Positions 6,471-52,521 of a stretch of 64,000 bases of DNA are shown here, piece after piece. Under the pieces are notes generated by a model. It ran no database searches. It saw only the letters and a program-made list of their open reading frames with translations, and was not told where the DNA came from. This DNA comes from Caballeronia sp. SL2Y3 (GTDB lineage Bacteria > Pseudomonadota > Gammaproteobacteria > Burkholderiales > Burkholderiaceae): the NCBI RefSeq assembly GCF_022879575.1, contig NZ_CP084263.1, positions 434,001 to 498,000 on the forward strand, given 5' to 3'. The position numbers and the translations under genes are program-made. The stretch's first letter is position 1, and each line of letters opens with the position of its first letter.

Positions 6471-6485
6471 TGCAATCCACATGCC
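6471..6485 (-). promoter_or_regulatory. -24/-12 (sigma-54-type) promoter of the Gly-rich secreted protein gene
   Basis: Minus-strand GGCATGTGGATTGCA. GG and GC are spaced exactly as in the sigma-54 consensus TGGCAC-N5-TTGC. It ends 36 bases before the ATG at 6434. Confidence 0.6.
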
Positions 6486-6525
6486 CCTCCGCCATGAAGA
6501 GCCGGCCGGGAGCGGCTTTGTCGCG

Positions 6526-6540
6526 GGACTGTGGATTGCT
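6526..6540 (+). promoter_or_regulatory. -24/-12 (sigma-54-type) promoter of the DUF2244 gene
   Basis: Plus-strand GGACTGTGGATTGCT with the GG-N10-GC spacing, ending 41 bases before the ATG at 6582. Divergent partner of 6471-6485. Confidence 0.5.
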
Positions 6541-6581
6541 TTTCCGCCACGCCGACATCGCAACGTGAAGCAGGAGTCCTC

Positions 6582-7058
6582 ATGCTCGCCCATCCGTCCC
6601 CGAAGCAATGGTCGCTCGCGCGGCGCGCGTCGTGTTCTCCGGCGGGCCTCGCGAGCGTCTGCGCGAGCCTCTCGATCATCCCCGTTGCCTTCGCGACCGC
6701 GATGCACGCGATCGACGGCGACGTCGTGTTCTACGGGTTAGCAGTCCTGCACGCGTGCATCATCTGGTCGTGCTTCTTCTGGCATGCAAGGCACGCGCTG
6801 GACGGCGACATCGTGACCTTGCACGGCCACACGCTCGTCATCCAATCGGCGCGCGGACCTGATACGCGCACGCGGCGGATCGACGCGCGCTGGGCGGTGC
6901 TTCTCGTCGCGCAGACAGGCGCGCGCACGCGATTGTCGCTGCGCGTGGCCGGCGAGACCGTGGAACTCGGACGCTTCACCACGCAGAGCCATCGTCTGCG
7001 GTTTCTCGCCGAGTTCCAGCAGGTCGCGCGCTGCGAGATGAACGCACTGGCTCACTAA
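6582..7058 (+). CDS. DUF2244-family membrane protein
   Basis: A 158-residue protein with two transmembrane helices close together (about residues 22-65: CASLSIIPVAFATAMHAI and VVFYGLAVLHACIIWSCFFW) and a cytoplasmic beta-rich tail that closes with VELGRFTTQSHRLRFLAEFQQ, the DUF2244 hallmark. The family function is unknown. The ATG at 6582 has AGGAG five bases upstream. The next gene (7102) follows after 43 bases and may be co-transcribed. Confidence 0.82.
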   Translation: MLAHPSPKQWSLARRASCSPAGLASVCASLSIIPVAFATAMHAIDGDVVFYGLAVLHACIIWSCFFWHARHALDGDIVTLHGHTLVIQSARGPDTRTRRIDARWAVLLVAQTGARTRLSLRVAGETVELGRFTTQSHRLRFLAEFQQVARCEMNALAH

Positions 7059-7101
7059 TCGCCACTACGCACCGGACTCACTGAATTTGCAGTCGAGCAT
7101 C

Positions 7102-7590
7102 ATGGACACCTCCCTTGTTTTATTGAAGGCGACCGCGGCCCCCGGAAAGCCCGGCCGCGTGACGCTGGCCGTGGCGAACCGGAGCGACGCGCGCATCGAG
7201 ATCGTACGCAGCCTGTTCGAACTGAAGCGAACGTATCGCGACGCGCGGCATGCGCTGCCGAGAGCGGGCTGGGGCTATACGGTCACCACCGTCATCACGA
7301 AGGGTACGCTGCTCGACGCCCGCGCCGAGTGGTGGGCCTGGTTCGACGGCGATACGCGCACGACCTTCGGCGGCGTCATTCCCGCGCACGCCCCCATGCC
7401 CGGCGAGCCGCAGTTGTATCTGGCAGGGCGCATCTTCTATCGACGCACAAAAGGCGAACTGATGGAAACCGCGTTCTATCGCCGGCTCGACCATGCGGAC
7501 ATGTCGTTCAGCGGAATCGAACCGCTGGATCGCGCGCTCAACTACGCCGGCAAGGTGCTGGTTCCGGGCGCGCTCGAAGCGCAGCATTAG
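7102..7590 (+). CDS. Hypothetical protein, 162 aa
   Basis: I do not recognise this protein. It begins MDTSLVLLKATAAPG and looks like a beta-rich domain: the opening alternates hydrophobic residues and the centre holds ARAEWWAWFDGDTRTTFGG, with many aromatics. It ends in a short helix. No signal peptide, membrane helix or cysteine motif was seen. The start could also be a TTG at 7087. It lies 43 bases after the DUF2244 gene on the same strand. Confidence 0.7.
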   Translation: MDTSLVLLKATAAPGKPGRVTLAVANRSDARIEIVRSLFELKRTYRDARHALPRAGWGYTVTTVITKGTLLDARAEWWAWFDGDTRTTFGGVIPAHAPMPGEPQLYLAGRIFYRRTKGELMETAFYRRLDHADMSFSGIEPLDRALNYAGKVLVPGALEAQH

Positions 7591-7605
7591 TTTGCGGCTC
7601 GCGCC

Positions 7606-7620
7606 GGCACGGGGAATGCA
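7606..7620 (+). promoter_or_regulatory. -24/-12 (sigma-54-type) promoter of the DUF2934 gene
   Basis: GGCACGGGGAATGCA, a close relative of the sites at 14650 and 32676 (GGCAC-N2-GGAATGC). It ends 76 bases before the ATG at 7697. Confidence 0.6.
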
Positions 7621-7696
7621 GTGGACAACTTCCAAGGCGGACGTCGCGGCCCTAGAATCGAACTGCGCGCAGCGCGCCACTTCACAGGACGAGAGA

Positions 7697-7930
7697 ATGT
7701 CGAGCACACCGGACCACGAGGACGACGATGCACGCGACGCGATGACGCGTGAAGCCCTCGAACAGCGCATTCGCACGCTGGCCTATTACATGTGGGAGGC
7801 CGAAGGCCGGCAAGCCGGCCGGGCCGACGAGTACTATCACCGCGCGCGCGAGCAGCTGAACGCGGACAATCCGGATGCGGCTCGCGAACGATCGGTCAAT
7901 TCGAAGAGCAAGAGCAAGCCGCCGTCGTGA
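7697..7930 (+). CDS. DUF2934-family small protein
   Basis: A 77-residue hydrophilic protein. The motif EQRIRTLAYYMWEAEGRQAGRADEYYHRA is the DUF2934 signature, a short helical domain of unknown function common in Burkholderia and Rhizobia. The N-terminus is acidic and the C-terminus is Lys/Ser rich. A -24/-12 element lies upstream, as for many small stress-type genes in this window. Confidence 0.85.
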   Translation: MSSTPDHEDDDARDAMTREALEQRIRTLAYYMWEAEGRQAGRADEYYHRAREQLNADNPDAARERSVNSKSKSKPPS

Positions 7931-7966
7931 GCACGACGGCGGGCATGGCAGGCTGCGCGCGTTCGT

Positions 7967-8194: not shown

Positions 8195-8236
8195 GGTGTG
8201 CCTCCGCGTATGGATGTGATGTTTGACGGAGGGCAC

Positions 8237-8251
8237 AGCATGGAGCGTGCC
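8237..8251 (-). promoter_or_regulatory. -24/-12 (sigma-54-type) promoter of the small protein gene at 8194
   Basis: Minus-strand GGCACGCTCCATGCT, ending 42 bases before the ATG at 8194. Confidence 0.6.
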
Positions 8252-11828: not shown

Positions 11829-12569
11829 TCAGCTGGCCGCGGTCTGTTCGGTACCGGTATCGGCGGCGGCGCCGGTGTCCGTGGCGGTCGACCGCTCGAC
11901 GGGCACGCGCACGGCGGACTCCCACCGCTCGTAGCCGCACGCCTCGCACGGCCGGTCCGGACGCTCATCCGACTGCACCGTGACACCGCAGCTCCAGCAC
12001 GAGAAATAGCCCTTCGCGCCGATGGCGTCGAGCAGCGACCGCTCCATGTCCGGCCGCACGGTCAGCCCCGGCGTAGGCTCCTTTCGCCACACGATGCTGA
12101 TGGACCCGGACGCCTCCATGTACACGCGGCGCAGTTGCCCGAGATGCGCGACGTTCGCCGCCCGCAACTCGGAGGCGAGCATTTCGCGCGAGACCTGGCT
12201 GGCTTTCAGTTCGTCGAGCAGTATGCGGCCGTCTTTCACGAGGATCGTGACGTCGCCCTGCTCCAGCACTTCGAATCTGCGCCAGCGCAGGCCGGCCCGC
12301 GCGCTCAGGCGTTGCAGCGCGACCACCGCGAGCAGCACGACAGCGGCCGGCAGCACGCCTTGCGACGACACCTGAATCGGCACGCCGATGGCCGCGCCCA
12401 GCATCAGAATGACGGCGAGTTCCGTGATGCTCAACTGCGCCGCGACGCGCTTGCCCATCATGCGCATGGCGACGAGCAGCATCAAATACATGACCACCGC
12501 TCGCGGGATGACTTCGATGAGAAAGGCCCACGGCCCGTCGCCGATCAGCAGTCGCTCGATGAAAGGCAT
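11829..12569 (-). CDS. DUF421 membrane protein with C-terminal zinc ribbon (second of a pair)
   Basis: A 246-residue protein. Three transmembrane helices fill about residues 15-85 and include MRMMGKRVAAQLSITELAVILMLGAAIGVPIQ, the DUF421 (YetF/YcaP-like) signature. The soluble domain holds the segment VLEQGDVTILVKDGRILLDEL. The C-terminus adds CWSC and CEAC, which look like a zinc ribbon not usual for the family. Its ATG overlaps the stop of the upstream DUF421 gene (ATGA), so the two are translationally coupled and may form a heteromer. Confidence 0.87.
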   Translation of the reverse strand: MPFIERLLIGDGPWAFLIEVIPRAVVMYLMLLVAMRMMGKRVAAQLSITELAVILMLGAAIGVPIQVSSQGVLPAAVVLLAVVALQRLSARAGLRWRRFEVLEQGDVTILVKDGRILLDELKASQVSREMLASELRAANVAHLGQLRRVYMEASGSISIVWRKEPTPGLTVRPDMERSLLDAIGAKGYFSCWSCGVTVQSDERPDRPCEACGYERWESAVRVPVERSTATDTGAAADTGTEQTAAS

Positions 12570-13276
12570 CAGCGCTCCACTTCCGTCACGGCGTACGTCC
12601 ACTCGCGCGATCCGCAGTTGTCGCAGCGCAGGTCGTCGGCGTGCCCGCTCTCGTCGGTGCGAACCGTATTGCCGCACTGCAGGCACGCGGAACAGCCCGG
12701 CACGCGGGCTTCGTCGCGCAGTTCCTCGTCGATGGCGGGCAGCACCGACAAGCCCGGTTTCGCGGGCCGCGCGGGGATGAACGAGAACGCGCCGGAAGGC
12801 TCCATGTAGAGGCGGCTGATCTGGCCGAGATGCTGCCAGCCTGCGAGCCGCATCGCTTCGTAGACTTTCTCGCGGGGCATCGCGGCGCGCGCCAGTTCGG
12901 CATGCTGGAGCAGCCCTTCGCGGGCGAGCAGCGTGACATCGGTCGATACCATCGTCTCGACGCGCCGATGCGTGATGCCCGCCGCCGCGATGATCCGCTG
13001 GAGCACGACCGCGACGAGCGCGATCAAGAACGGCGGCAGCATGCCGCGATTCGCCGCTTGCAACGGCACGCCGATGGCAGCGGCCAGCGTCACGACGATG
13101 GAGATCTCGAAGAGCGTGAACTGCGCGGCGACGCGCCGGCCCAGCAAGCGCATGGCGATGACGAGCAGCACGTAAGTCGCGCACGTTCTCAGCAGCACTT
13201 CCAGCAGGAAGTGCCATGACGCATTGCCGAACAGGAAGCGATGCCAGTCGGTCAGTCTGAACGGAGGGGATTGCAA
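12569..13276 (-). CDS. DUF421 membrane protein with C-terminal zinc ribbon (first of a pair)
   Basis: A DUF421 protein of about 235 residues, paralogous to the next gene. It has three transmembrane helices, the signature MRLLGRRVAAQFTLFEISIVVTLAAAIGVP, a soluble domain and a C-terminal pair of CxxC motifs (CLQC, CDNC). The longest frame begins at 13369, but the -24/-12 element at 13313-13327 would lie inside it, so I prefer the TTG at 13276, which has an AGGTG seven bases upstream and gives the usual family N-terminus. The start is uncertain. Confidence 0.8.
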   Translation of the reverse strand: MQSPPFRLTDWHRFLFGNASWHFLLEVLLRTCATYVLLVIAMRLLGRRVAAQFTLFEISIVVTLAAAIGVPLQAANRGMLPPFLIALVAVVLQRIIAAAGITHRRVETMVSTDVTLLAREGLLQHAELARAAMPREKVYEAMRLAGWQHLGQISRLYMEPSGAFSFIPARPAKPGLSVLPAIDEELRDEARVPGCSACLQCGNTVRTDESGHADDLRCDNCGSREWTYAVTEVER

Positions 13277-13312
13277 AGCGGCACCTGAGCGCAGGTCGAG
13301 TGCGGAGCACGG

Positions 13313-13327
13313 CGCATTCGGCGTGCC
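13313..13327 (-). promoter_or_regulatory. -24/-12 (sigma-54-type) promoter of the DUF421 pair
   Basis: Minus-strand GGCACGCCGAATGCG, ending 36 bases before the TTG start at 13276. It lies inside the longest open frame, which argues for the shorter start. Confidence 0.6.
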
Positions 13328-13362
13328 TGAAACGGGCTTGACGTAGCGCCTGCAGGGCCGCA

Positions 13363-13377
13363 GGCACATCTTGTGCG
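13363..13377 (+). promoter_or_regulatory. -24/-12 (sigma-54-type) promoter of the DUF2252 gene
   Basis: GGCACATCTTGTGCG, with GG-N10-GC spacing, ending 44 bases before the ATG at 13422. Divergent partner of 13313-13327. Confidence 0.5.
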
Positions 13378-13421
13378 ATGCACTAGAAAAGACCGCGCTA
13401 CTCTATCCCGCAAGACGATTC

Positions 13422-14639
13422 ATGTCCAAGCCATCCAAGCACAAAGTACCCGAGTTCGAGAGCCGGCAGGAAATACTCACGGCGCGACGCAATGCCAAGA
13501 TGGCCCGTTCGACGCACGCCTATGTGCGCGGTAACACGTCCAAGTTCTACGACTGGCTCGAACAGGCGGAGATTCGCGGCTTGCCGCAAGGCCCGGCCAT
13601 CTGGATCTGCGGCGACTGCCACACCGGCAATCTCGGCCCCGTCGCGGACGCGAACAAGCGCATCGAGATTCAGATACGCGATCTGGACCAGACAGTCATC
13701 GGCAATCCGGTGCACGACCTGATCCGGCTCGGCCTCTCGCTCGCGACGACGGCGCGCGGCTCGGCGCTGCCGGGCGTCACCACCATCAACATGATCGAGG
13801 CGCTGTTCGAAGGCTACGCGCTCGCCTTCGATGCCGACAGCGACGCGGACGACACCTGCCGCAAGCCCGAACTGGTGCGCGTGGTCATGCGCGAAGCGGT
13901 GCGCCGCTCGTGGAAGCATCTCGCGCTGGAACGGCTCGACGACACGCAGCCGACCATCCCGTACGGAAGCCGCTTCTGGCCCGTCAACAAGGACGAGCGC
14001 GCGGAGATCGAGGCGCTGTTCCAGAAGGAGACGCTCGCCAAGCTGGCGACGAGCCTTCGCGGTCGTCCGGATACCGGCAAGGTCACCGTGCTGGATGCCG
14101 CGTACTGGGTCAAAGGCTGCAGTTCGCTCGGACGCCTGCGTTACGCGGTGCTGCTGGATGTGGACGGCGGCGTGGTCGAAGGCGACGATCTGTGCCTCAT
14201 CGACATCAAGGAAGGCGTGAAGGCCGCCGCGCCGCGCTATCCCGGCACGAGCATGCCGCGCGACAACGCGGAACGCGTGGTCGAGGGCGCGCGCAACCTG
14301 TCGCCGCATCTCGGCGAGCGCATGCGATCCGCGACTTTGCAAGGACGTCCCGTGATTCTGCGCGAACTGCTGCCGCAAGACCTGAAGCTGGAAATCGAGC
14401 ACATCGGGCATACGGAAGCGATGGAAGTGGCGCGCTATCTCGCCTTCGTCGTCGGTCAGGCGCACGCGCGGCAGATGGACCGCGCCACGCGCAAAAGCTG
14501 GCTTGCCGAACTGAAGCGCACGAAGCCCAAGTCCATCGACGCGCCGTTGTGGCTGTGGAGCAGCATCGTGGAACTGGTCGGCAGTCACGAGGTCGGCTAT
14601 CTCGAACATTGCCGGCGCTACGCGCTCGCGGCGGCCTGA
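13422..14639 (+). CDS. DUF2252 protein
   Basis: A 405-residue cytosolic-type protein. The segment IWICGDCHTGNLGP near residue 65, IQIRDLDQTVIGNPVHDLIRL near 85 and LIDIKEGVKAA near 260 are the DUF2252 pattern, which resembles an aminoglycoside-phosphotransferase/kinase-like fold (GDxHxxN and D motifs). The activity is not known. The ATG at 13422 is used because it follows the predicted promoter. It is divergent from the DUF421 pair. Confidence 0.87.
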   Translation: MSKPSKHKVPEFESRQEILTARRNAKMARSTHAYVRGNTSKFYDWLEQAEIRGLPQGPAIWICGDCHTGNLGPVADANKRIEIQIRDLDQTVIGNPVHDLIRLGLSLATTARGSALPGVTTINMIEALFEGYALAFDADSDADDTCRKPELVRVVMREAVRRSWKHLALERLDDTQPTIPYGSRFWPVNKDERAEIEALFQKETLAKLATSLRGRPDTGKVTVLDAAYWVKGCSSLGRLRYAVLLDVDGGVVEGDDLCLIDIKEGVKAAAPRYPGTSMPRDNAERVVEGARNLSPHLGERMRSATLQGRPVILRELLPQDLKLEIEHIGHTEAMEVARYLAFVVGQAHARQMDRATRKSWLAELKRTKPKSIDAPLWLWSSIVELVGSHEVGYLEHCRRYALAAA

Positions 14640-14649: not shown

Positions 14650-14664
14650 GGCACGCGGAATGCA
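14650..14664 (+). promoter_or_regulatory. -24/-12 (sigma-54-type) promoter of the gene at 14704
   Basis: GGCACGCGGAATGCA, ending 39 bases before the ATG at 14704. Nearly identical to 7606 and 32676. Confidence 0.65.
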
Positions 14665-14703: not shown

Positions 14704-15267
14704 ATGCAGAACGCAGAAGGCAATCCGACACAGCAACAGCAAAAGGAAATGGCGGCGAAGAGCCCCGTCAAGACGCCCGCGACCGGCACGGCTTCGCCCG
14801 ACGCCGCCACGCAGGCGAAGGAGTTCGGCAGCACGAAACACGCGGGCTCGGCCGAACCCGGCCCGGCCGACGAGAACGGCGCGCTGCCGTCCATCGACGA
14901 CCGCGCGGCCAGCAACGGCTCGTCCGATCCGGTGCAGGAAGCGGCGAGCCGCATTCGCGCGGTCGACGACGCAGGCATGGAGTCCACCGACGACACCGTG
15001 GACGCCGACGCGAAGTCGATCGAAGCGAGCCGCGATATGTCCGGCTGGCACGACAACGTGATCTCGTCGAACGCGACGCTGTCCAATAACGTGCGCGCAC
15101 CGGCGCGCGGACTCGGCGGCATCGACAGCCGTCCGACCGGCAACGTCCCGCCGATTCTGGCCAAGCGCGGCTATCGCGTGGTGTTCAGCGAGACGGTCTA
15201 CGAGCAGCAGATGAACGGATCGAAGACATCGCACGTGTTCAGCTTCGAGCGTGTCGGCGATGCTTGA
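14704..15267 (+). CDS. Hypothetical, largely disordered protein (187 aa)
   Basis: I do not recognise a domain. The first ~125 residues are rich in Gln, Ala, Thr, Asp and Ser and look disordered; a small folded end (about 130-187) contains LAKRGYRVVFSETVYEQQ and closes HVFSFERVGDA. The ATG has GAGGA upstream. A -24/-12 element lies 39 bases before it. The DUF3460 gene follows after 45 bases. Confidence 0.72.
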   Translation: MQNAEGNPTQQQQKEMAAKSPVKTPATGTASPDAATQAKEFGSTKHAGSAEPGPADENGALPSIDDRAASNGSSDPVQEAASRIRAVDDAGMESTDDTVDADAKSIEASRDMSGWHDNVISSNATLSNNVRAPARGLGGIDSRPTGNVPPILAKRGYRVVFSETVYEQQMNGSKTSHVFSFERVGDA

Positions 15268-15843: not shown

Positions 15844-18222
15844 ATGACGAACGTCATGCGCGATAGCGAGAACACGCCGGCCGGCATGCGCCCCGACTGG
15901 GCACGCATCTGGGTCGATTCCACGACCGCTCTTGCGGCGTTTTGCCTGACGCCGGAAGGTTATGTGTCGACGTGGAACCCGGGCGGCACGGCCATCTACG
16001 GCTATGCGCCCGAAGAAATCATCGGCCAGCACTATTCGGTCTTTTTCCCCGACGACGACCGCGAGAGCGCGACGCTCGAAAGCGAATTGCGCGAAGCGCG
16101 CGCGCACCGCAGCTTCGAAACCGAAGGATGGCGCAGGCGCAAGGACGGGTCCGTGTTCTGGGCGAGCGTGCTCACCACGGCGCTGATCGAGGCGGACGGG
16201 TCGCTCATCGGCTTCGTGAAGATTGTCCGCGACGAAAGCGACAAACGAAAGGCGCACGATGCCGTGATCGAAAGCGAGCGGCGCTTTCGTCTGCTTGTCG
16301 AGGGCGTGACGGACTACTCCATCTTCATGCTCTCGCCCGAAGGTCTCGTGACCAACTGGAACAGCGGCGCGCGGCGCATCAAGGGTTATACCGCCGAAGA
16401 AATCATCGGCTCGCATTTCTCGCGCTTCTATTCCCCGGAAGATGCGGCGGCCGGCCTGCCACAACGCGCGCTGCGCATTGCCGCCAGCGAAGGACGGTTC
16501 GAATCCGAAGGCTGGCGCCTGCGCCGCGACGGCACGCGCTTCTGGGCGCACGTGATCGTGGACGCCATTCGCGACGAAACAGGCACGCTGATCGGCTTTG
16601 CGAAGATCACGCGCGACGTCACCGAGAAGCGCGAAGCGGATCAGCTACTCGAAGAAACGCGCGCCGCGCTGTTGCAGGCGCAGAAGATGGAAGCCATCGG
16701 CAAGCTGACGGGCGGCGTCGCGCACGACTTCAATAACGTGCTGCAAGTGCTGCGCGGCAATCTCGAACTGCTGCGCAGCCGCTGCATGGGCGACAACTGG
16801 AGCATGGACCGCTTGGGCAACGCGATCGACGCAGTGGAACGAGGCGCGAAGCTCGCGTCGCAATTGCTCGCGTTCGGCCGCAGGCAAGCGCTGCGGCCCG
16901 TGTCCGTGAATCTCGCCACGATGGTGCGCGGCATGGACGACCTGCTGCGCCGCGCGCTCGGCGAAACCATCGAGGTAGAGACGGTGGTGTCCGGCGGCCT
17001 GTGGAATGCGTTCGTCGACCTGCATCAACTGGAAAACGTGCTGCTGAACCTTGCCATCAACGCGCGCGATGCGATGCCCGACGGCGGCAAGCTCACGCTC
17101 GAACTCGCGAACGCCATGCTCGACGACCGCTACGTGCGCTCGCTTTCCGACGTGCCGGCGGGACAGTACGTGATGCTCGGCGTGACCGATACGGGCGTCG
17201 GCATGCCGCCCGAAGTGCTGGAGCGCGCATTCGATCCTTTCTTCAGCACGAAGCCCGAAGGCGAAGGCACCGGGCTCGGTCTCAGCATGGCGTATGGGTT
17301 CATCAAGCAAAGCGGCGGGCATATCCGCATCTACAGCGAAGTCGGGCACGGCACCACGGTGCGCGTCTACCTGCCGCGATCGCTGGTGGAAGCGCTCGAA
17401 CCCACGCAGTGGCGCAACGCGCCGGTGACGGGCGGCACGGAAACGATACTCGTCGTGGAGGACGACCAGAAGGTGCAGTCCACCGTCATCGAGATGCTGA
17501 CGGACCTCGGCTACAACGTGCTCAAGGCCGACAACGCCGATCAGGCGCTCGTCGTGTTGAGCAGCGGCGTGCACATCGACCTCGTCTTCACCGACGTCGT
17601 GATGCCCGGCTCGCTCAAGAGTCCCGAGATGGCGCGGCGCGCCGTGAAGATGCACCCGAATCTGCGCGTGCTTTTCACGTCCGGGTACACGCACAATGCG
17701 ATCGTTCACGGCGGACGCCTCGATCCCGGCGTCGAACTGTTGAGCAAGCCGTACAGCCGCGAGGACCTCGCCTCCAAGATCCGGCAGATGCTCGGCACTC
17801 CAAATCAATCGTCCGAAACGACCGTGACGAAAGCCGAACCGCCCGCCGCGCCCGCCGCTGCAAAACGCGTGCTGGTGGTGGAAGACGACCGCTTCGCGCG
17901 CGAAGCGGTGAGCGAGCTGCTCGTCATGCTCGGCCATCACGCGGTGAGCACGGCCACGGCAAGCGGGGCGCTCGAAGCGCTGACGCTCGACGCTTTCGAC
18001 GTGCTGCTGACCGACGTCAATTTGCCCGACATGGCGGGCACCGAACTCGCGCGGCGCGCGGTGGAACGTTGCCCCGGTATGCGCGTGATCTTCGCGTCGG
18101 GAGACAGCGTGCTCGACAACGAAGTGCAGGGCTTCGAATGGCAGGCGCTGCGCAAGCCGTACACGCTCGAACAACTCGAAAAAGCGTTGCGCGACGAAGG
18201 CCGCGCGAGCAGCCAGCGATAA
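15844..18222 (+). CDS. Hybrid sensor histidine kinase (PAS-PAS-HisKA-HATPase-REC-REC)
   Basis: A 792-residue protein without membrane helices. Domains in order are: two PAS/PAC units (about 20-140 and 145-265, each with the W-R/GxG and GFVKI/GFAKI pattern), HisKA with GGVAHDFNN (H294), HATPase with the N box NARDAMPDGG, G1 DTGVGM and G2 GEGTGLGLSMAYG, and two receiver domains with phospho-acceptors D584 (LVFTDVVMPG) and D724 (LLTDVNLPD). There is no output domain or adjacent response regulator, so the phosphate may pass to a distant partner. The ATG at 15844 is used. Confidence 0.93.
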   Translation: MTNVMRDSENTPAGMRPDWARIWVDSTTALAAFCLTPEGYVSTWNPGGTAIYGYAPEEIIGQHYSVFFPDDDRESATLESELREARAHRSFETEGWRRRKDGSVFWASVLTTALIEADGSLIGFVKIVRDESDKRKAHDAVIESERRFRLLVEGVTDYSIFMLSPEGLVTNWNSGARRIKGYTAEEIIGSHFSRFYSPEDAAAGLPQRALRIAASEGRFESEGWRLRRDGTRFWAHVIVDAIRDETGTLIGFAKITRDVTEKREADQLLEETRAALLQAQKMEAIGKLTGGVAHDFNNVLQVLRGNLELLRSRCMGDNWSMDRLGNAIDAVERGAKLASQLLAFGRRQALRPVSVNLATMVRGMDDLLRRALGETIEVETVVSGGLWNAFVDLHQLENVLLNLAINARDAMPDGGKLTLELANAMLDDRYVRSLSDVPAGQYVMLGVTDTGVGMPPEVLERAFDPFFSTKPEGEGTGLGLSMAYGFIKQSGGHIRIYSEVGHGTTVRVYLPRSLVEALEPTQWRNAPVTGGTETILVVEDDQKVQSTVIEMLTDLGYNVLKADNADQALVVLSSGVHIDLVFTDVVMPGSLKSPEMARRAVKMHPNLRVLFTSGYTHNAIVHGGRLDPGVELLSKPYSREDLASKIRQMLGTPNQSSETTVTKAEPPAAPAAAKRVLVVEDDRFAREAVSELLVMLGHHAVSTATASGALEALTLDAFDVLLTDVNLPDMAGTELARRAVERCPGMRVIFASGDSVLDNEVQGFEWQALRKPYTLEQLEKALRDEGRASSQR

Positions 18223-19809: not shown

Positions 19810-19824
19810 GGCACAGTGCTTGCG
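19810..19824 (+). promoter_or_regulatory. -24/-12 (sigma-54-type) promoter of DUF2382 gene 1
   Basis: GGCACAGTGCTTGCG, an excellent match to TGGCAC-N5-TTGC. It ends 96 bases before the ATG at 19921. Confidence 0.7.
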
Positions 19825-19920: not shown

Positions 19921-20361
19921 ATGAACCCAGACGATACCCCGTCCAATGCCACGCCGCCGTCCGAAGAGGTGCGCCTCTCCGCCGTGCAGGAAGAACTCTC
20001 GGTCGGCGTGCGCACGACCGAGACCGGCTCCGTGCGCGTGCGCAAGGTCGTGCATGAGGAAATGCAACCCGTTTCGATGCGCCTCTCCACGCAGCAAGTG
20101 GAAGTGAGGCGCGTGGCAGTGAATCGGCCTGTCGAGGAGCGTAGCGAGCCGCGCCGCGAAGGCGATACGCTCGTCATACCGGTATACGAATACGTGCCGG
20201 TGGTCAGGATGCAACTGACGTTGAAAGAAGAGGTGTACGTGAAGACAACCGAGACGCAACAGGACGTCGTGCACCAGGTTCTCGTGAATTCTGAGGAACT
20301 CGTCGTGGAGCGGCGCGAGGGGCCGGACGGCGAATGGAAGCGCGATTCGCAGGCAGGCTGA
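19921..20361 (+). CDS. DUF2382 (YsnF/AvaK-like) stress protein, short form
   Basis: A 146-residue protein. It starts at the ATG at 19921, with GGAG six bases upstream; an in-frame ATG at 19909 is also possible. Beta-strand repeats such as VRLSAVQEELSVGVRTTETGSVRVRKVVHEE and VEVRRVAVNRPVEE match DUF2382, known from stress-induced proteins (YsnF, AvaK). The function of the domain is unknown. A second DUF2382 gene follows after 97 bases with its own promoter. Confidence 0.86.
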   Translation: MNPDDTPSNATPPSEEVRLSAVQEELSVGVRTTETGSVRVRKVVHEEMQPVSMRLSTQQVEVRRVAVNRPVEERSEPRREGDTLVIPVYEYVPVVRMQLTLKEEVYVKTTETQQDVVHQVLVNSEELVVERREGPDGEWKRDSQAG

Positions 20362-20382: not shown

Positions 20383-20397
20383 GGAACGCGCGTTGCG
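20383..20397 (+). promoter_or_regulatory. -24/-12 (sigma-54-type) promoter of the YsnF-like gene
   Basis: GGAACGCGCGTTGCG, ending 60 bases before the ATG at 20458. It has GGAAC at the -24 side and TTGC at the -12 side. Confidence 0.65.
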
Positions 20398-20457: not shown

Positions 20458-21357
20458 ATGACTCAGACTATCATTGGTGTATTCAATACGCTTCAGGACG
20501 CCGAACTCGCCCAGACCCGCCTCGAAGCAGAAGGCATCGCGCGCACGGACATGAGCGTGCATTCGAACGATGCCGGCTCGTCGATGACGTCGGGCTCGAC
20601 GATGAGCGATGTCTCGACGGACCGCCCCGTCGGCGAGGCGCACGAAGGCGCCATGGGCCGTATCGAACACTTCTTCAAGAACCTCTTCGGCGATGACGAC
20701 CGCCCGGAAGAGATCGGTCATTATCAGGAAGCGGTGCGTCGCGGAAGCGCGTTGCTGTCGGTCGACGTGCGGGACGAAACGGCGACCGAACGCGTGCGCG
20801 ACGCGCTGTATGCGGCCGGCGCAATCGACATCGACTCGCGCGTGGCTCAGTGGCGCAATACGGGCTACACGGGCTACGACCGCAATGCGCCCGCCTACAC
20901 CGCAGATGAAATCGCAGCAGAACGTCAGGCATTCCCGGTCGTGCAGGAGTCGCTCGAAGTCGGCAAGCGTGAAGTGCAAACGGGCGGCGTGCGCGTGTAC
21001 TCGCGCCTGACCGAAACGCCGGTCAGCGAGTCCGTGAACCTGCATGAAGAACACGCGAGCATCGAGCGCCGCGCAGTGGACCGTCCGGCGACGGCGGCGG
21101 ACCTGAAGGAAGGCTTCGTCGAGATCAAGGAAACGGCTGAACAAGCGGTCGTCGCGAAGACGGCGCGCGTGGTCGAGGAAGTGGTCGTCGGCAAGGAAAG
21201 CTCGAACCGCACCGAGACGATCACGGATACGGTCCGCGGCACGGAAGTGGAAGTGGAACGCACCGCGGGCGTGGAAGGCACGACGACCGGCGTGCAAGGC
21301 ACCACGGGTCTCGAAGGCACCACCGGCGTGACCGGCACGAAGAAGACCCCGCTGTAA
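20458..21357 (+). CDS. YsnF/AvaK-type stress protein (YflT-like domain plus DUF2382)
   Basis: A 299-residue protein. Residues 1-90 form an alpha/beta heat-induced-protein domain (MTQTIIGVFNTLQDAELAQTRLEAEGI, the YflT/general-stress-17M type). The DUF2382 domain follows at about 155-265 (FPVVQESLEVGKREVQTGGVRVYSRLTETPVSESV). The last 30 residues are Gly-Thr repeats, four copies of about G-(V/L)-x-G-T-T. Related in domain to the shorter DUF2382 protein upstream. Confidence 0.87.
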   Translation: MTQTIIGVFNTLQDAELAQTRLEAEGIARTDMSVHSNDAGSSMTSGSTMSDVSTDRPVGEAHEGAMGRIEHFFKNLFGDDDRPEEIGHYQEAVRRGSALLSVDVRDETATERVRDALYAAGAIDIDSRVAQWRNTGYTGYDRNAPAYTADEIAAERQAFPVVQESLEVGKREVQTGGVRVYSRLTETPVSESVNLHEEHASIERRAVDRPATAADLKEGFVEIKETAEQAVVAKTARVVEEVVVGKESSNRTETITDTVRGTEVEVERTAGVEGTTTGVQGTTGLEGTTGVTGTKKTPL

Positions 21358-26902: not shown

Positions 26903-26917
26903 TGCAAGCTGCGTGCC
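26903..26917 (-). promoter_or_regulatory. -24/-12 (sigma-54-type) promoter of the DUF3072 gene
   Basis: Minus-strand GGCACGCAGCTTGCA matches the consensus GGCACG-N4-TTGCW exactly, with 41 bases to the ATG at 26861. Confidence 0.75.
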
Positions 26918-30576: not shown

Positions 30577-30591
30577 AGCAATCCCAGTGCC
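30577..30591 (-). promoter_or_regulatory. -24/-12 (sigma-54-type) promoter of the small acidic protein gene
   Basis: Minus-strand GGCACTGGGATTGCT, ending 106 bases before the ATG at 30470. Confidence 0.65.
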
Positions 30592-30622
30592 TTGGTTTGC
30601 AGCGGGCGCAACGCATGGCGCC

Positions 30623-30637
30623 GGAACGGTGATTGCT
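30623..30637 (+). promoter_or_regulatory. -24/-12 (sigma-54-type) promoter of the DUF1264 run
   Basis: GGAACGGTGATTGCT, ending 40 bases before the ATG at 30678. The two divergent sites share GATTGCTT; their GG elements are 31 bases apart. Confidence 0.65.
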
Positions 30638-32675: not shown

Positions 32676-32690
32676 GGCACAGGGAATGCT
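32676..32690 (+). promoter_or_regulatory. -24/-12 (sigma-54-type) promoter of the gene at 32729
   Basis: GGCACAGGGAATGCT, like 7606 and 14650. It ends 38 bases before the ATG at 32729. Confidence 0.65.
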
Positions 32691-32728: not shown

Positions 32729-33028
32729 ATGAAAGAACCGGTCTCGCGACGCGCGAAGCTCGTCTTGTTCCCGTGGAAGAAGGACCATGCGGCCAAGCCC
32801 GGCCTCAACGAAGACGACTACGCGGTGTACGCGTCGTATCGGCCGCACGTGAGCGGCGGCTTCGTCGGAACGCTGAAGGTCGTGCGGCTGACGGATGCGC
32901 GCCTGCTCTATCCCTTCGACGGCGCCGAGGAACTCGGTCCGTTTAATTCGAAGGATGCCGCGAAGAACGCCGCGCAGACGCGCGGCAAGCAGATCGTCGA
33001 CGCGGATCTCAAGACGCCCGAACTCTGA
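32729..33028 (+). CDS. Small hypothetical protein (99 aa)
   Basis: A 99-residue basic protein that starts MKEPVSRRAKLV (an ATG at 32717 is also possible, but the promoter spacing favours 32729). The central part YASYRPHVSGGFVGTLKVVRLTDARLLYPF looks like a small beta-sheet domain, possibly DUF6723, which I recall only loosely. It is convergent with the mgtC-like gene. Confidence 0.65.
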   Translation: MKEPVSRRAKLVLFPWKKDHAAKPGLNEDDYAVYASYRPHVSGGFVGTLKVVRLTDARLLYPFDGAEELGPFNSKDAAKNAAQTRGKQIVDADLKTPEL

Positions 33029-36547: not shown

Positions 36548-36562
36548 AGCATCCCGCGTTCC
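36548..36562 (-). promoter_or_regulatory. -24/-12 (sigma-54-type) promoter of the SDR-MRJP operon
   Basis: Minus-strand GGAACGCGGGATGCT, ending 34 bases before the ATG at 36513. Confidence 0.6.
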
Positions 36563-44100: not shown

Positions 44101-44115
44101 AGCAAGCGTTATTCC
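44101..44115 (-). promoter_or_regulatory. -24/-12 (sigma-54-type) promoter of the zinc-ribbon operon
   Basis: Minus-strand GGAATAACGCTTGCT, ending 39 bases before the ATG at 44061. The GG elements of this and the next site are only 18 bases apart. Confidence 0.6.
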
Positions 44116-44133
44116 GATTGATGGAGGCCTCGC

Positions 44134-44148
44134 GGCACAGCGATTGCG
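44134..44148 (+). promoter_or_regulatory. -24/-12 (sigma-54-type) promoter of the DUF892 gene
   Basis: GGCACAGCGATTGCG, ending 51 bases before the ATG at 44200. Confidence 0.65.
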
Positions 44149-44199: not shown

Positions 44200-44706
44200 A
44201 TGACCGAACCCGCTGAACATTTGTTGGACTGGCTACGCGATGCGCACGCCATGGAGCAGCAAGCCGAACAGATGCTGCGCGCGCAATCCGGCCGCCTCGA
44301 AAACTATCCGCAACTGAAGGCTCGTATCGACCAGCATCTGGAAGAAACGCTCGGGCAGCAGAAGATCGTGCAGGAATGTATCGAGCGCCTCGGCGGCTCG
44401 ACCTCGATCATGAAGGACCTGACCGCGAAGATGATGGCCTTCGGGCAAGCCGCCGGCGGCATGACGCAAACCGACGAAGTGGTGAAGGGCGCGATCATGA
44501 GCTATGTGTTCGAGAACCTCGAGATTGCGTCGTACACGTCGTTGATCGCGGCAGCCGAGCGTTGCGGCGACGCGCAGACCAAGGCCGCCTGCGAGCGCAT
44601 CCTTCCGCAGGAACAGGCGATGGCGCAGTGGCTGCTCGAACATATTCCGTCCATCTCGACGCAATATCTTGAGCGTTCCGCCGCAGGTCAGGAAGCAAAG
44701 AAATAA
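44200..44706 (+). CDS. DUF892 ferritin-like protein (YciE/YciF type)
   Basis: A 168-residue protein with the four-helix ferritin-like DUF892 domain: LLDWLRDAHAMEQQAEQML, QLKARIDQHLEETLGQQKIVQECIERLGG, YVFENLEIASYTSLIAAAERCGD. Metal-ligand Glu/His residues are present in these helices. The ATG at 44200 has AAGGAG six bases upstream (44188-44193). Members appear under osmotic and general stress in other bacteria; whether it binds iron is not proven. Confidence 0.88.
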   Translation: MTEPAEHLLDWLRDAHAMEQQAEQMLRAQSGRLENYPQLKARIDQHLEETLGQQKIVQECIERLGGSTSIMKDLTAKMMAFGQAAGGMTQTDEVVKGAIMSYVFENLEIASYTSLIAAAERCGDAQTKAACERILPQEQAMAQWLLEHIPSISTQYLERSAAGQEAKK

Positions 44707-44989
44707 GCGACGCGCGTCGCGACCGTTGAGTGGCACGTCCGTTGCTGAAAGGAAAACGCCCGCCCGTTCGTATGTCCGAGCATGCGACGGGCAGGCTTCA
44801 CTCGATACCGCGGCAACTCCACGCCGCATCACGCCAGCGCGAATCTTCTGCGCTGAGGCTCGCAGCAGCACGACTGCAAGTGACGTCACGACGCCCTCAC
44901 TGTCGCTGCGAGTTAGAAGCCTCTTGAAACCTCGTTCGGGTGCCGCTTGCGCCGCAAGCGCCGCTCGTCCATAACCAGGAGCCGTTGAT
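44707..44989. other. Leader region of the manganese catalase gene
   Basis: 283 bases without a gene. It contains a 14-base palindrome GCGACGCGCGTCGC (44707-44720) and the strong -24/-12 promoter (44731-44746). The leader from the promoter to the ATG is about 240 bases, much longer than for the other members. Confidence 0.6.
44732..44746 (+). promoter_or_regulatory. -24/-12 (sigma-54-type) promoter of manganese catalase
   Basis: TGGCACGTCCGTTGCT (44731-44746), an exact match to TGGCACG-N4-TTGCW. A palindrome lies 10 bases upstream. Confidence 0.75.
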
Positions 44990-45865
44990 ATGTTCGTACA
45001 TAACAAACGCCTGCAATATACCGTCCGCGTGGCAGCCCCGAATCCCGGCTTAGCCAATCTGCTCCTCGAGCAGTTCGGCGGCCCGCAAGGCGAGCTTGCC
45101 GCCGCCATGCGCTACTTCACGCAAGCAGTGACCGAAGACGATCCGGGCCGCAAGGACATGCTGTTCGATATCGCGACCGAAGAGATGAGCCACCTCGAAG
45201 TGATCGGCAGCATCGTCGCGATGCTGAACAAGGGCGCGAAGGGCGCGCTCGCCGAAGCGGTGGAGCAGGAAGCCGAGTTGTATCGCTCGATGACGGGCAA
45301 CGGCAACGATTCGCACACGACCGCGATTCTGTACGGCGCGGGCACGCCGCTTACGAACTCGGCCGGCGTGCCGTGGACGGCGGCGTATATCGACACCATC
45401 GGCGAGCCGACGGCCGACTTGCGCTCGAACATCGCAGCCGAAGCGCGCGCGAAGATCGTCTATGAGCGCCTCATCAACGTGACGGACGACCCCGGCATCA
45501 AGGACGCGCTCGGCTTTCTGATGACGCGTGAAATCGCGCATCAGAAGTCGTTCGAGAAGGCGCTGCATTCCATTCAGCCGAACTTCCCGCAAGGCAAGCT
45601 GCCGGGCGTGCCGGAGTTCACGAGCGTCTACTTCAACATGTCCAAGGGCGACGACGCACGCGGGCCGTGGAACGAAGGCGGCGACTGGAAGTTCGTCGAG
45701 GACCCGCAGCCCGCAGTGGATGGCGGCGACGGCACGGCCACCGTGCAGGTGTCGGAGCAGGACGTCGAGACGCTGCAGGCGATGGCTGCGCGCACCGCGT
45801 CCGACCCGACGGCCGATCCGACGACCGGCGCGGACCTCGGCGCAGGACAGGCAGTGAGTAAGTAA
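44990..45865 (+). CDS. Manganese (non-heme) catalase
   Basis: A 291-residue ferritin-like enzyme that splits hydrogen peroxide at a dimanganese site. The expected ligands are visible: E35 (QGELAAAMRY), E65 and H68 (ATEEMSHLE), E151 (AAEARAK) and H184 (REIAHQ). The tail (about 235-291) is Thr/Ala/Gly rich. A long leader precedes it. DUF378 follows after 113 bases on the same strand. Confidence 0.93.
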   Translation: MFVHNKRLQYTVRVAAPNPGLANLLLEQFGGPQGELAAAMRYFTQAVTEDDPGRKDMLFDIATEEMSHLEVIGSIVAMLNKGAKGALAEAVEQEAELYRSMTGNGNDSHTTAILYGAGTPLTNSAGVPWTAAYIDTIGEPTADLRSNIAAEARAKIVYERLINVTDDPGIKDALGFLMTREIAHQKSFEKALHSIQPNFPQGKLPGVPEFTSVYFNMSKGDDARGPWNEGGDWKFVEDPQPAVDGGDGTATVQVSEQDVETLQAMAARTASDPTADPTTGADLGAGQAVSK

Positions 45866-49008: not shown

Positions 49009-49023
49009 AGCATTGCACGTACC
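49009..49023 (-). promoter_or_regulatory. -24/-12 (sigma-54-type) promoter of the MmgE/PrpD gene
   Basis: Minus-strand GGTACGTGCAATGCT, ending 38 bases before the ATG at 48970. Confidence 0.55.
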
Positions 49024-49035
49024 ACTCGTCACGGC

Positions 49036-49050
49036 GGAATGCGGTTTGCT
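49036..49050 (+). promoter_or_regulatory. -24/-12 (sigma-54-type) promoter of the gene at 49128
   Basis: GGAATGCGGTTTGCT, ending 77 bases before the ATG at 49128. Only 12 bases separate its GG from that of the divergent site. Confidence 0.55.
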
Positions 49051-49127: not shown

Positions 49128-49724
49128 ATGAGTGACCCCTTCCCCTTTCCGAAGTCTCCCGCCAACGACGTCTCGCGAAGAAGCAAACCCACCGCCGTCG
49201 CTCGCGGCCTCGGCTGGTACAGCCTGGCGCTCGGCGCCGCGCAACTGCTCGCGCCGAGTTCTGTCGCGCGCGCGGCCGGCGTGCGCACGAGCCCGATGCT
49301 GATGCGCCTCTATGGTCTGCGCGAGATCGCATGCGGCATCGGCATTCTCGCCTCGCGCGATCCCACGCCGTATCTGTGGGCGCGCGTCGGCGGCGACGCG
49401 CTCGACATAGCCACGCTCGTCACGGCATCGGACAGAACGAGCCCGCGCGCGCTCGGCGCGCTGTTGAACGTGGCAGGCGTCACCGCCCTCGACATTCACG
49501 CGGCCACGGCGCTCTCCTCCCACGCCGAAGACGAGCGTCGCGAAGCGCAGTTGCGCGGGCAGCGGTTCGCCTCGATGTATCGCAACCGCAGCGGCTTTCC
49601 GCGCTCGCCGGAGGCCATGCGAGGCACGGCGCTGCGCGACTTCGAAACGCCGCGCGACATGCGCGCGCCGGACGAGATGCTGCCGTACACGCATGCGCAG
49701 TACAAAAAGGCGAAAGGCGCCTGA
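49128..49724 (+). CDS. Hypothetical membrane protein (198 aa)
   Basis: A 198-residue protein. The N-terminal half holds small hydrophobic helices (LGWYSLALGAAQLLAP near 28, LREIACGIGILASRDPTPYLWARV) like the DUF4267-type or cyclase/dehydrase-associated membrane segment. The C-terminal half is Arg/Glu-rich and soluble. The function is unknown. It starts at ATG 49128 (AAGAGG upstream), and hemerythrin follows after 63 bases. Confidence 0.75.
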   Translation: MSDPFPFPKSPANDVSRRSKPTAVARGLGWYSLALGAAQLLAPSSVARAAGVRTSPMLMRLYGLREIACGIGILASRDPTPYLWARVGGDALDIATLVTASDRTSPRALGALLNVAGVTALDIHAATALSSHAEDERREAQLRGQRFASMYRNRSGFPRSPEAMRGTALRDFETPRDMRAPDEMLPYTHAQYKKAKGA

Positions 49725-50469: not shown

Positions 50470-50967
50470 TCAGCCAGCCGCCTTCACTTCCTCGGCCATC
50501 TGCGTCTTCGCGAGTTGCGTGAGCTTCTCGTCGGTGGATTTCTCTTCCTCCAAGGTCTCGAGCAGCAGGTTCATCGCTTCTTCCTGGCCGAGCTGCTTCG
50601 CCAGCGTCGCGAGCGTGCCGTACGTCGCGATCTCGTAGTGTTCCACCTTCTGCGCTGCTGCGATCAGCGCGGCATCGCGAATCGGGCCTTGCTCGAAGTC
50701 TTCGATCTGCTCCTGACCTTCCTCGACGAGCCCTTCCATCGCCACGCACTTGATGCGCTTGAGCTTGACGCCACACAGTTCGACTACCTTGTCGATCCGT
50801 TCGATCTGACCGTTGGTTTCTTCCAGATGCTGCTGGAATGCCTGCTTCAGTTGCTCGTGCGTGCTCGCGCGTGCGAGCTTCGGCAGCGCCTTCGTCAGTT
50901 GTTTCTCTGCGCTATAAACGTCGGACAGTGCGTGAATGAACAAATCCTGCATAGTCTTCGATGCCAT
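50470..50967 (-). CDS. DUF892 ferritin-like protein (YciF type)
   Basis: A 165-residue four-helix ferritin-like protein: MQDLFIHALSDVYSAEKQLTKALPKLA, LKQAFQQHLEETNGQIERIDKV, AAQKVEHYEIATYGTLATLAKQLG, TLEEEKSTDEKLTQLA. The Glu/His positions match a DUF892 diiron site. GGAGG precedes the ATG at 50967. A second DUF892 gene is at 44200; the two differ in sequence. The role is presumed stress related. Confidence 0.9.
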   Translation of the reverse strand: MASKTMQDLFIHALSDVYSAEKQLTKALPKLARASTHEQLKQAFQQHLEETNGQIERIDKVVELCGVKLKRIKCVAMEGLVEEGQEQIEDFEQGPIRDAALIAAAQKVEHYEIATYGTLATLAKQLGQEEAMNLLLETLEEEKSTDEKLTQLAKTQMAEEVKAAG

Positions 50968-51032
50968 CGATGCCTCCGTTTCAGGGTGAGTGGGTTCGCA
51001 CCGGCCGGTGGGCCAGCCGCGCATGTCTATCG

Positions 51033-51047
51033 CGCAATCGCCATTCC
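51033..51047 (-). promoter_or_regulatory. -24/-12 (sigma-54-type) promoter of the DUF892 gene at 50967
   Basis: Minus-strand GGAATGGCGATTGCG, ending 65 bases before the ATG. It lies in the gap just before the end of nadE. Confidence 0.6.
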
Positions 51048-51051
51048 AGTC

Positions 51052-51897
51052 TCAGACGCGCGGCACTTCGAGCGGCAGCGCGCGCTTGTGGCGCGTGGCC
51101 ATGTAAAAGCGACGTATGGTCGTAAGCACGTCTTCACTCACGTCCTTGCCTTCGAGAAAGTCGTCGATGTTCTCGTAGCTGATGCCGTAGCTGTCTTCAT
51201 CCGGCTTCTGCGGCGTGAGCGTTTCGAGGTCCGCCGTCGGCACTTTCATGACGAGACGATCGTCCGCGCCCATCGATCGCGCGAGCGCGCGCACGCGGCG
51301 CTTCGTGAGTCCGGAGAGCGGCAGGATGTCCGCGCCGCCGTCGCCGTACTTCGTGAAGAAGCCCATCAGCGATTCCGCCGCGTGGTCCGTGCCGATCACG
51401 ACGCCGCGCCGCGCCCCGGCTATCGCGTACTGCGCGATCATGCGCTCGCGCGCCTTGATGTTGCCGAGTACGAAGTCTTCCTGGAAATCGTCGGTGTATT
51501 GCGCGCCGCCTTGCTTGAGCGCCGCGATCATTTCGTCCGACGGTCCCTTGACGTTGACGGTCAAGGTCTCATCCGGGCGTACGAATTCGAGCGCGGCCTG
51601 CGCGTCGTCTTCGTCACGCTGCGAGCCGTAAGGCAGCCGCACCGCCACGAAATGCGCTTCGTAGCGGCGCGCGCGCAGCCGCTCGACGGCGAGTTGCGCG
51701 AGACGCCCGGCCGTGGACGAATCCACGCCGCCGCTGATGCCGAGCACATAGGTTCGCAGTCCCTGCGACGTCAGATAGTCGGACAAGAAGGCGACGCGCC
51801 GCTCGCGCTCGGTATCGGCATCGAAGTCCTGGCTGACACCCAGCTCTTGAGCGATCTGCTGTTGCCACTGCCTCCATTCGCTTTGGCTCTGATCCAT
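51052..51897 (-). CDS. nadE: NAD synthetase, ammonia-dependent type
   Basis: A 281-residue NadE that converts nicotinate adenine dinucleotide to NAD with ATP and ammonia. The P-loop motif is LGISGGVDSSTAGRLA near residue 50; VIGTDHAAESLMGFFTKYGDGG and LTKRRVRALARSMGA are characteristic. There is no glutaminase domain. GGGGGA is upstream of the ATG. It is 22 bases after pncC, so the two genes form one operon of NAD recycling. Confidence 0.94.
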   Translation of the reverse strand: MDQSQSEWRQWQQQIAQELGVSQDFDADTERERRVAFLSDYLTSQGLRTYVLGISGGVDSSTAGRLAQLAVERLRARRYEAHFVAVRLPYGSQRDEDDAQAALEFVRPDETLTVNVKGPSDEMIAALKQGGAQYTDDFQEDFVLGNIKARERMIAQYAIAGARRGVVIGTDHAAESLMGFFTKYGDGGADILPLSGLTKRRVRALARSMGADDRLVMKVPTADLETLTPQKPDEDSYGISYENIDDFLEGKDVSEDVLTTIRRFYMATRHKRALPLEVPRV

Positions 51898-51919
51898 GTT
51901 CGTCCCCCAACGGTATTGA

Positions 51920-52420
51920 TCAATGTCTCGGCAGACGGTCGAAGTAGTGCTCGAGGCGCGAGATGGCGTAAAGCGCCGCCGCGCGCCGGACTTCGTTGCG
52001 TTCGCCATCGAAGACCTTCGTCTCGCTGAACGTGACGATCTGGCCATCGCGCAGCTTGTACGACCATGCAAAGCATTGCGTGCCGGCCTCGGGGCCGTCT
52101 CCGGGCGGGGCATCGGCCACGCCGGTGTTCGAAACGGAGACGTTCGCAGAGCACGGCTCCTGTTTCAGCGCGCCCTCCGACATCTCGCGCGCCACTTCCT
52201 CGCTCGTCAGGCCGTATTGCTTCATCGTCTCCTCGCGCACGCCGAGAAAGCCGGCCTTGCCCGTGGGCGAGTACGTGACGAAGCCCACGTCGAGGCAACT
52301 GCCGCTGCCCGGCACCGATGAGATGAGCGACGCGATGTAACCCGCCGTGCACGATTCGGCTGTCGCAAGCATCAGCCCGCGCGAAGTGAGGAAAGAAACG
52401 ACTTGTCGTGGTACGTCCAT
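51920..52420 (-). CDS. pncC: Nicotinamide-nucleotide amidase (CinA C-terminal domain)
   Basis: A 166-residue stand-alone CinA-C domain protein. Motifs TAESCTAGYIASLISSVPGSG near residue 19, YSPTGKAGFLGV and VSNTGVADAPPGDG are typical. PncC deamidates NMN to nicotinate mononucleotide, a salvage step of the pyridine nucleotide cycle. nadE follows after 22 bases, consistent with the same pathway. A -24/-12 element is 50 bases upstream, divergent from the caa3 oxidase operon. Confidence 0.9.
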   Translation of the reverse strand: MDVPRQVVSFLTSRGLMLATAESCTAGYIASLISSVPGSGSCLDVGFVTYSPTGKAGFLGVREETMKQYGLTSEEVAREMSEGALKQEPCSANVSVSNTGVADAPPGDGPEAGTQCFAWSYKLRDGQIVTFSETKVFDGERNEVRRAAALYAISRLEHYFDRLPRH

Positions 52421-52470
52421 GTTTTCTATCTCCTTGTGCCCGCTGCCGATGAGCTTGCAGCCAAGTGCAA

Positions 52471-52485
52471 AGCAATCGCTGCACC
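52471..52485 (-). promoter_or_regulatory. -24/-12 (sigma-54-type) promoter of pncC-nadE
   Basis: Minus-strand GGTGCAGCGATTGCT, ending 50 bases before the ATG at 52420. Confidence 0.55.
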
Positions 52486-52488
52486 AAA

Positions 52489-52504
52489 GGACGGCGGCCC
52501 GTCC
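52489..52504. promoter_or_regulatory. Palindrome between divergent promoters
   Basis: GGACGG-CGGC-CCGTCC (52489-52504) lies between the -24 elements of pncC and the oxidase operon, a possible regulator site. Confidence 0.4.
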
Positions 52505-52506
52505 AT

Positions 52507-52521
52507 GGAATGTCTATTGCT
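52507..52521 (+). promoter_or_regulatory. -24/-12 (sigma-54-type) promoter of the caa3 oxidase operon
   Basis: GGAATGTCTATTGCT, ending 66 bases before the ATG at 52588. Confidence 0.55.

Follow-up and report, generated by a model that had tools for sequence, protein, structure and literature searches.

We analyzed a 64-kb window of the 5.5-Mb, five-contig genome of Caballeronia sp. SL2Y3 (C4:434001-498000; by "the window" we mean this whole stretch). Intergenic regions in the window carry -24/-12 elements that match GGMAYN5WTGC. Sequence, position, spacing and conservation identify these elements as sigma-54 promoters. They are probably part of a regulon of the general-stress type that extends across the genome and is run via RpoN2, a second RpoN protein, and P0002, an NtrC-type activator encoded beside it. 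As predicted from the genes downstream, the regulon would include trehalose, glycogen, manganese catalase (Mn-catalase), DUF892, DUF2382, DUF2383, BON, CBS, topoisomerase IB, and terminal oxidase genes. An earlier note on this DNA had described -24/-12 promoters before a set of stress and unknown-function genes, and we confirmed this observation. Its suggestion that sigma-54 promoters precede a general-stress-like gene set is supported by the sequence and spacing of the sites, by their enrichment in intergenic DNA, and by their conservation across species.

Sigma-54 promoters in the window

Searching both strands of the window for GGMAYN5WTGC gave 20 matches, versus 5.1 +/- 2.6 in shuffled sequences (none of 100 shuffles reached 20). 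If the spacer is changed to N6 or N4, the window has just 4 or 6 matches, which is the chance level (5.3 and 5.4 expected, respectively). The enrichment is specific to N5, the sigma-54 spacing given in the earlier note. Nineteen of the 20 matches are intergenic, and the pattern read backward has no intergenic matches and three coding matches in the window. The intergenic density is 2.0 per kb in the window, versus 0.28 in the rest of C4 and 0.25 in 27 pieces of the other replicons; the value for the rest of C4 is biased in that all 4 matches in one 20-kb piece (L271) were counted as intergenic. As the earlier note had proposed to check, the motif is denser in intergenic than in coding DNA (0.02-0.08 per kb) and commoner than in shuffled sequence. 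The whole genome has 526 matches, versus 173 for the backward pattern. At this rate, 64 kb would hold about 6 matches, and the window exceeds even its own genome by about 3-fold. It is the densest stretch of the regulon among the DNA that we examined.

The sites also have the other features of sigma-54 promoters. The invariant GG and GC lie ten bases apart with consensus flanks. Two positions outside the search pattern fit the sigma-54 consensus as well: the base after GGMAY is G in 26 of 39 sites from this genome, and the base after TTGC is T in 23, A in 9, G in 7, and never C. The genome encodes RpoN and enhancer-binding ATPases. Finally, the position and orientation of the element relative to the gene are conserved in relatives (for four window genes, Mn-catalase, and the rpoN2 locus; see below).

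The earlier note listed 22 sites. After correction of the strand, 18 of these are strict matches. The other four are weaker: 6526+ has GGACT, 13363+ ends in GTGC, 49010- has GGTAC, and 52472- has GGTGC. All 22 had been placed on the plus strand, which is right for 12; the other 10 belong to the minus strand, and their first base is one position further on (at 6472, 8238, 13314, 26904, 30578, 36549, 44102, 49010, 51034, and 52472). Two strict matches had been missed, at 31158+ (inside the DUF1264 gene) and at 62794+ (13 bp before an ATG). Among the 18 strict listed sites, the GC is 35-107 bp from the start codon in all but one, that of Mn-catalase (244 bp). (Start codons are from our own gene calling and from direct reading of the sequence.) The statement that most sites end 34-51 bases before the start fits 9 of the 18 strict sites, or 12 of all 22, and the rest are outside this range.

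The names given to the downstream genes are backed by Pfam (DUF892, DUF2382, DUF3072, DUF2934, DUF421, DUF1264, Mn-catalase, COX2, DUF2244, zinc ribbon, CinA-type pncC, and NAD synthase). Of the genes said to lack the element, ohr (OsmC family), glpD, the gene at 37594 (the opine operon of the earlier note), and three LysR-type genes have no core motif within 250 bp upstream. Similarly, there is no strict match below 6472, which is where the gene that we take to be ribH lies (4299-4799).

Conservation in relatives

We searched 250 bp upstream of related genes with a slightly wider pattern, GGHAYN5WTGC. Given the motif's density in coding DNA, it is expected by chance in about 1% of such stretches. 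For oxidase subunit II, the motif is present in 16 of 16 Caballeronia loci with at least 66% identity (12 within 110 bp of the start and 4 at 224-243 bp; three second copies, one fragment, and weaker homologues were left out). For the DUF892 gene at 50470, it is present in 6 of 6 loci from four genera. (These are the locus itself, three loci from across genera at about 70% identity, and two beside the oxidase genes of G116 and G152; the weak matches L144-L146 and other weak DUF892 paralogues were left out.) The other DUF892 gene, at 44200, has the motif in 6 of 12 orthologous loci (out of 13 full-length matches), and these are the six most similar, with at least 89% identity. The DUF1264 gene has it within 140 bp in 5 of 7 loci, and the divergent partner of this site, at 30578, is also present in 5 of 7. 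(Three of ten DUF1264 loci, L230-L232, were left out: one is at 53% identity and two are fragments.) The Mn-catalase site is present in 4 of 4 loci, with L201 left out. Between orthologues, the spacer bases and the distance to the start drift while the motif is kept. In alignments, the -24/-12 core and the ribosome site are the main conserved elements upstream of most targets.

This genome has two rpoN genes, whose proteins are 45% identical and share the same RpoN box; RpoN2 retains ARRTVAKYR. (RpoN2 is 98-99% identical to the RpoN2 proteins of Burkholderia sp. 8Y and Caballeronia sp. GAFFF1.) Near rpoN2 are the activator P0002, a second activator, otsA, and BON, DUF883, DUF2383, DUF4142, BrkB-family, and DJ-1/PfpI genes. 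rpoN2 has its own -24/-12 site, which is present in 77 of 80 relatives (with the pattern GGNAYN5WTGC), and the BON gene, which is divergent from rpoN2, has another. In Caballeronia-type loci, four site-bearing genes have the motif in 140 of 143 cases (OtsA 36/36, P120 35/35, PfpI 30/30, and RpoN2 39/42). Paraburkholderia-type loci have no OtsA nearby and keep the motif at P120 (20/20), PfpI (26/26), and RpoN2 (38/38). Seven site-less neighbours in the Caballeronia-type loci have no matches at all (0/35, 0/35, 0/34, 0/36, 0/36, 0/19, and 0/35).

Elsewhere in the genome, we annotated a selection of the matches. Sites precede GlgX, topoisomerase IB, DUF3309, CBS, BrkB-type, TPP-enzyme, NAD-kinase, and molybdopterin oxidoreductase genes, and lie 151 and 197 bp upstream of GlgA and GlgC.

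RpoN2, P0002, and the alternatives

Sigma-54 promoters require an AAA+ activator, and this genome has 13 strong sigma-54 activator genes. P0002, which has a receiver domain, a sigma-54-interaction domain, and a Fis-type helix-turn-helix (HTH), adjoins rpoN2 and has no kinase gene next to it. Half of 120 genomes from the family, 60, encode an orthologue of RpoN2 with at least 58% identity. Every one of these also has a P0002 orthologue (at least 60% identity), versus 15 of the 60 genomes that lack RpoN2 (at least 58% identity). The distance between P0002 and rpoN2 is at most 10 kb in 42 of the 60 RpoN2-containing genomes and at most 30 kb in 47 (counted by hand from coordinates). RpoN2 and P0002 are inherited together, and the linkage and co-inheritance make P0002 the best candidate for the activator. 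A caveat is that the 120 genomes share ancestry, so this co-occurrence does not represent 60 independent events. We infer that RpoN2, rather than RpoN1, acts on these promoters; that P0002 does so, rather than another of the roughly 13 activators; and that the activating signal is stress. In our proposed mechanism, a stress signal would reach the response regulator P0002, whose AAA+ ATPase would remodel sigma-54 polymerase that is already sitting at the promoters. rpoN2 itself would be one output, and because it has its own -24/-12 site, this would give positive feedback.

The two activators of the rpoN2 locus (L021, 9284-10567 on the minus strand and 12278-13681 on the plus strand) are 55% identical over 328 amino acids, and their HTHs hardly differ (LG[IV]SLKTLYNRL). 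Both may therefore recognize the same DNA. Also, within the stress cluster of the window, there is a hybrid histidine kinase (15844-18222, plus strand) with two PAS and two receiver domains (Pfam). It is possible that this kinase is the sensor for the activator.

Could the motif be something other than a promoter? An ordinary repressor or activator might bind it, given that the core is partly self-complementary and that divergent pairs occur. But all except one of the 18 strict listed sites point at a start codon 35-107 bp away, the two halves of the motif hold a strict N5 spacing, and it agrees with the sigma-54 consensus GGCACG-N4-TTGC used for Paraburkholderia (PMC5979394), even at positions that we did not select for. 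We consider a binding site of this kind very unlikely. It seems more improbable still that the genes are driven by RpoS or sigma-70 and that the matches arose by chance in GC-rich intergenic DNA. The gene set does resemble RpoS regulons, and an effect of RpoS on KatE has been reported for B. pseudomallei (cited in PMC4745423). But the reversed pattern has no intergenic matches in the window, the altered spacers are at chance, and in relatives, the surrounding sequence turns over while the core stays.

A more serious alternative, though we find it doubtful, is that the housekeeping RpoN1 and several different activators read these sigma-54 promoters. RpoN2 would then be incidental, and the genes would not form one stress regulon. 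Both RpoNs share the same RpoN box, there are 13 strong activator genes, and the motif is in excess in genera without RpoN2. Several observations weigh against our preferred reading, and those on motif excess, the OtsA site, and enhancers also fit this alternative. Across the 120 genomes, whole-genome motif counts do not track RpoN2, and some RpoN2-less g3 genomes are 5-fold over the backward control, versus 3-fold here. (We rejected these counts as a test of dependence on RpoN2, as uninformative.) Among 30 genomes, the core site at OtsA is found in only 7 of 19 with RpoN2 and P0002, and it is missing in, among others, all 8 such g11 genomes. It is also found in 2 of the 11 without RpoN2; of these two, G085 has P0002, but G083 has neither protein. 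(Neither G083 nor G110 has RpoN2, a close P0002, or TopIB; G083 nonetheless keeps the OtsA site.) The forward motif is upstream of TopIB in 4 of 12 loci with RpoN2 and 0 of 4 without. At the rpoN2 locus, some of the site-less neighbours have matches in other genera (bEBP1 2/13, YihY 2/8, P95 2/5) or in Paraburkholderia-type loci (DUF4142 5/22, GSP 1/30). The sites at BON (37/42 Caballeronia-type, 7/37 Paraburkholderia-type) and DUF2383 (19/38 and 25/33) are only partly kept. Some sites in this genome precede MFS transporters and lone receiver domains, which are not stress-like. In B. cenocepacia, peroxide did not induce rpoN (BCAL0813), a gene that is cited as dispensable for peroxide resistance (PMC2830190). 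And no shared enhancer was found among 39 and 53 promoters from this genome, using dyads, k-mers, and spaced palindromes. On the other side are the coherent stress-type targets around rpoN2 and in the window, rpoN2's own site in 77 of 80 loci, and the co-inheritance of RpoN2 and P0002, and these lead us to favor a stress regulon run via RpoN2 and P0002.

Besides the divergent partner sites, the enhancer search gave nothing convincing, and no conserved enhancer was found before three window genes. In the rpoN2-BON intergenic region (L022, about 4343-4839), 43 Caballeronia-type sequences have a conserved block, TTTTGTC...GTGTAAAAA, that precedes the -24 element of rpoN2 by about 100 bp; of 38 Paraburkholderia-type sequences, at least 90% have TTGTAAAAA at a similar position. 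The block is a candidate enhancer. A longer conserved stretch lies upstream at otsA. TGTAAAA, which is part of the rpoN2 block, is upstream of 4 of 39 sites (0.08 expected), but two of these cases share the rpoN2 intergenic region itself, so TGTAAAA is only a lead. Without a common enhancer and with tightly spaced divergent pairs (see below), the activator may need no specific site here. A caveat is the Fis-type HTH of P0002. A bolder idea, which we regard as tentative and rather unlikely, is that large-genome Burkholderiaceae run a general stress response via a dedicated, self-activating RpoN2 and one kinase-less response regulator, on compact and often back-to-back promoters without a sequence-specific enhancer. 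A sigma factor known for tight, enhancer-bound control of individual operons would then act as a global stress sigma factor.

Control by sigma-54 is better known from nitrogen use and motility. RpoS and EcfG stress regulons include trehalose, glycogen, catalase, DUF892, BON, CBS, and DUF3309 genes, and the target types here resemble theirs. But the promoters here are -24/-12, and the EcfG-type pattern GGAAC-N16-18-CGTT has no matches in the window (1.7 expected), which is not what an EcfG regulon would look like. It has long been known that Burkholderia carries two rpoN copies; the literature that we found describes little about what the second one does. The closest precedent is in B. pseudomallei, where the second RpoN positively controls a stress gene: loss of rpoN2 lowers katE, which has a predicted RpoN box (PMC4745423). 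In the available text of that study, katE is the stress target studied, a 2D gel also shows CysM, HisA, and other changes, and neither an activator nor a promoter set is described. In the related Paraburkholderia phymatum, the RpoN regulon has the same consensus as here, with 409 predicted boxes (PMC5979394; the matrix was taken from a study of B. cenocepacia H111). But the targets described in the available text are in nitrogen, symbiosis, and transport, and "catalase" is absent from the main text. Sigma-54 also contributes to stress or host adaptation in Campylobacter (RpoN; PMC3196706) and in Borrelia (Rrp2-RpoN-RpoS), but a second, self-controlled RpoN or a comparable gene set is not seen in the available accounts. 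Among the literature matches listed, which cover few subscription papers, none described a general stress regulon under sigma-54 for Burkholderiaceae. The conserved promoters, the -24/-12 site of rpoN2, and the activator inherited with it open the role of the second RpoN to direct testing. If our reading is true, many DUF genes gain a regulatory context, and sigma-54 joins the sigma factors behind stress programmes of the RpoS or EcfG kind.

Individual sites and the Mn-catalase leader

Five times in the window, two -24/-12 sites stand back to back with very little DNA between them (6472-6539, 30578-30636, 44102-44147, 49010-49049, and 52472-52520). Three of these pairs include a weaker site. 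The GG elements are 19 bp apart at 44115/44134, where both sites are strict, and 13 bp apart at 49023 (weaker)/49036. The closest pair is so tight that simultaneous occupancy by two polymerases is hardly possible. In the pair at 6472, GGCATGTGGATTGC (6472..6485, minus) precedes a Gly-rich open reading frame (ORF) of 111 amino acids (6434-6099), and the weaker GGACTGTGGATTGC (6526..6539, plus) precedes the DUF2244 gene (6582-7058). GGCACTGGGATTGC (30578..30591, minus) precedes an ORF at 30470-30279 and is divergent with GGAACGGTGATTGC (30623..30636, plus), which precedes the DUF1264 gene (ATG at 30678). GGAATAACGCTTGC (44102..44115, minus) precedes a zinc-ribbon (DUF1451) ORF (44061-43894), and GGCACAGCGATTGC (44134..44147, plus) a DUF892 gene (44200-44706). 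The weaker GGTACGTGCAATGC (49010..49023, minus) precedes an MmgE/PrpD gene (48970-47585), and GGAATGCGGTTTGC (49036..49049, plus) an ORF with no Pfam match (49128-49724). The weaker GGTGCAGCGATTGC (52472..52485, minus) precedes a CinA/pncC-type ORF (52420-51920), followed by NAD synthase (51897-51052), and GGAATGTCTATTGC (52507..52520, plus) precedes the oxidase subunit II gene (52588-53544).

As for the remaining sites on the plus strand, GGCACGGGGAATGC (7606..7619) is before a DUF2934 gene (7697-7930), GGCACGCGGAATGC (14650..14663) is before a DUF3005 gene (14704-15267), GGCACAGTGCTTGC (19810..19823) and GGAACGCGCGTTGC (20383..20396) are before DUF2382 genes (19921-20361 and 20458-21357), and GGCACAGGGAATGC (32676..32689) is before an ORF at 32729-33028. 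On the minus strand, GGCACGCTCCATGC (8238..8251) is before an ORF with no Pfam match (8194-7967), GGCACGCCGAATGC (13314..13327) is before a DUF421 gene (13276-12569), GGCACGCAGCTTGC (26904..26917) is before a DUF3072 gene (26861-26571), GGAACGCGGGATGC (36549..36562) is before a short-chain dehydrogenase gene (36513-35488), and GGAATGGCGATTGC (51034..51047) is before a DUF892 gene (50967-50470).

Candidatus Burkholderia or Paraburkholderia records (kirkii and others) have rpoN2 with a -24/-12 site in 7 of 7 cases (L042, L047, L050, L051, L056, L064, and L065).

The last site, GGCACGTCCGTTGC (44732..44745, plus), is 244 bp before the Mn-catalase gene (44990-45865). Between them is a 233-nt structured leader (44757..44989, plus) that is conserved in four Caballeronia (fold z -3.1). 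It had no match in Rfam. The four sequences keep 65, 64, 47, and 37 of the 65 pairs in the structure predicted from our own sequence (37 in G108), and in an alignment of the four (A1), three 5' stems are kept in all of them except for single pairs. Perhaps this leader is a riboregulator or small RNA that is transcribed with sigma-54.

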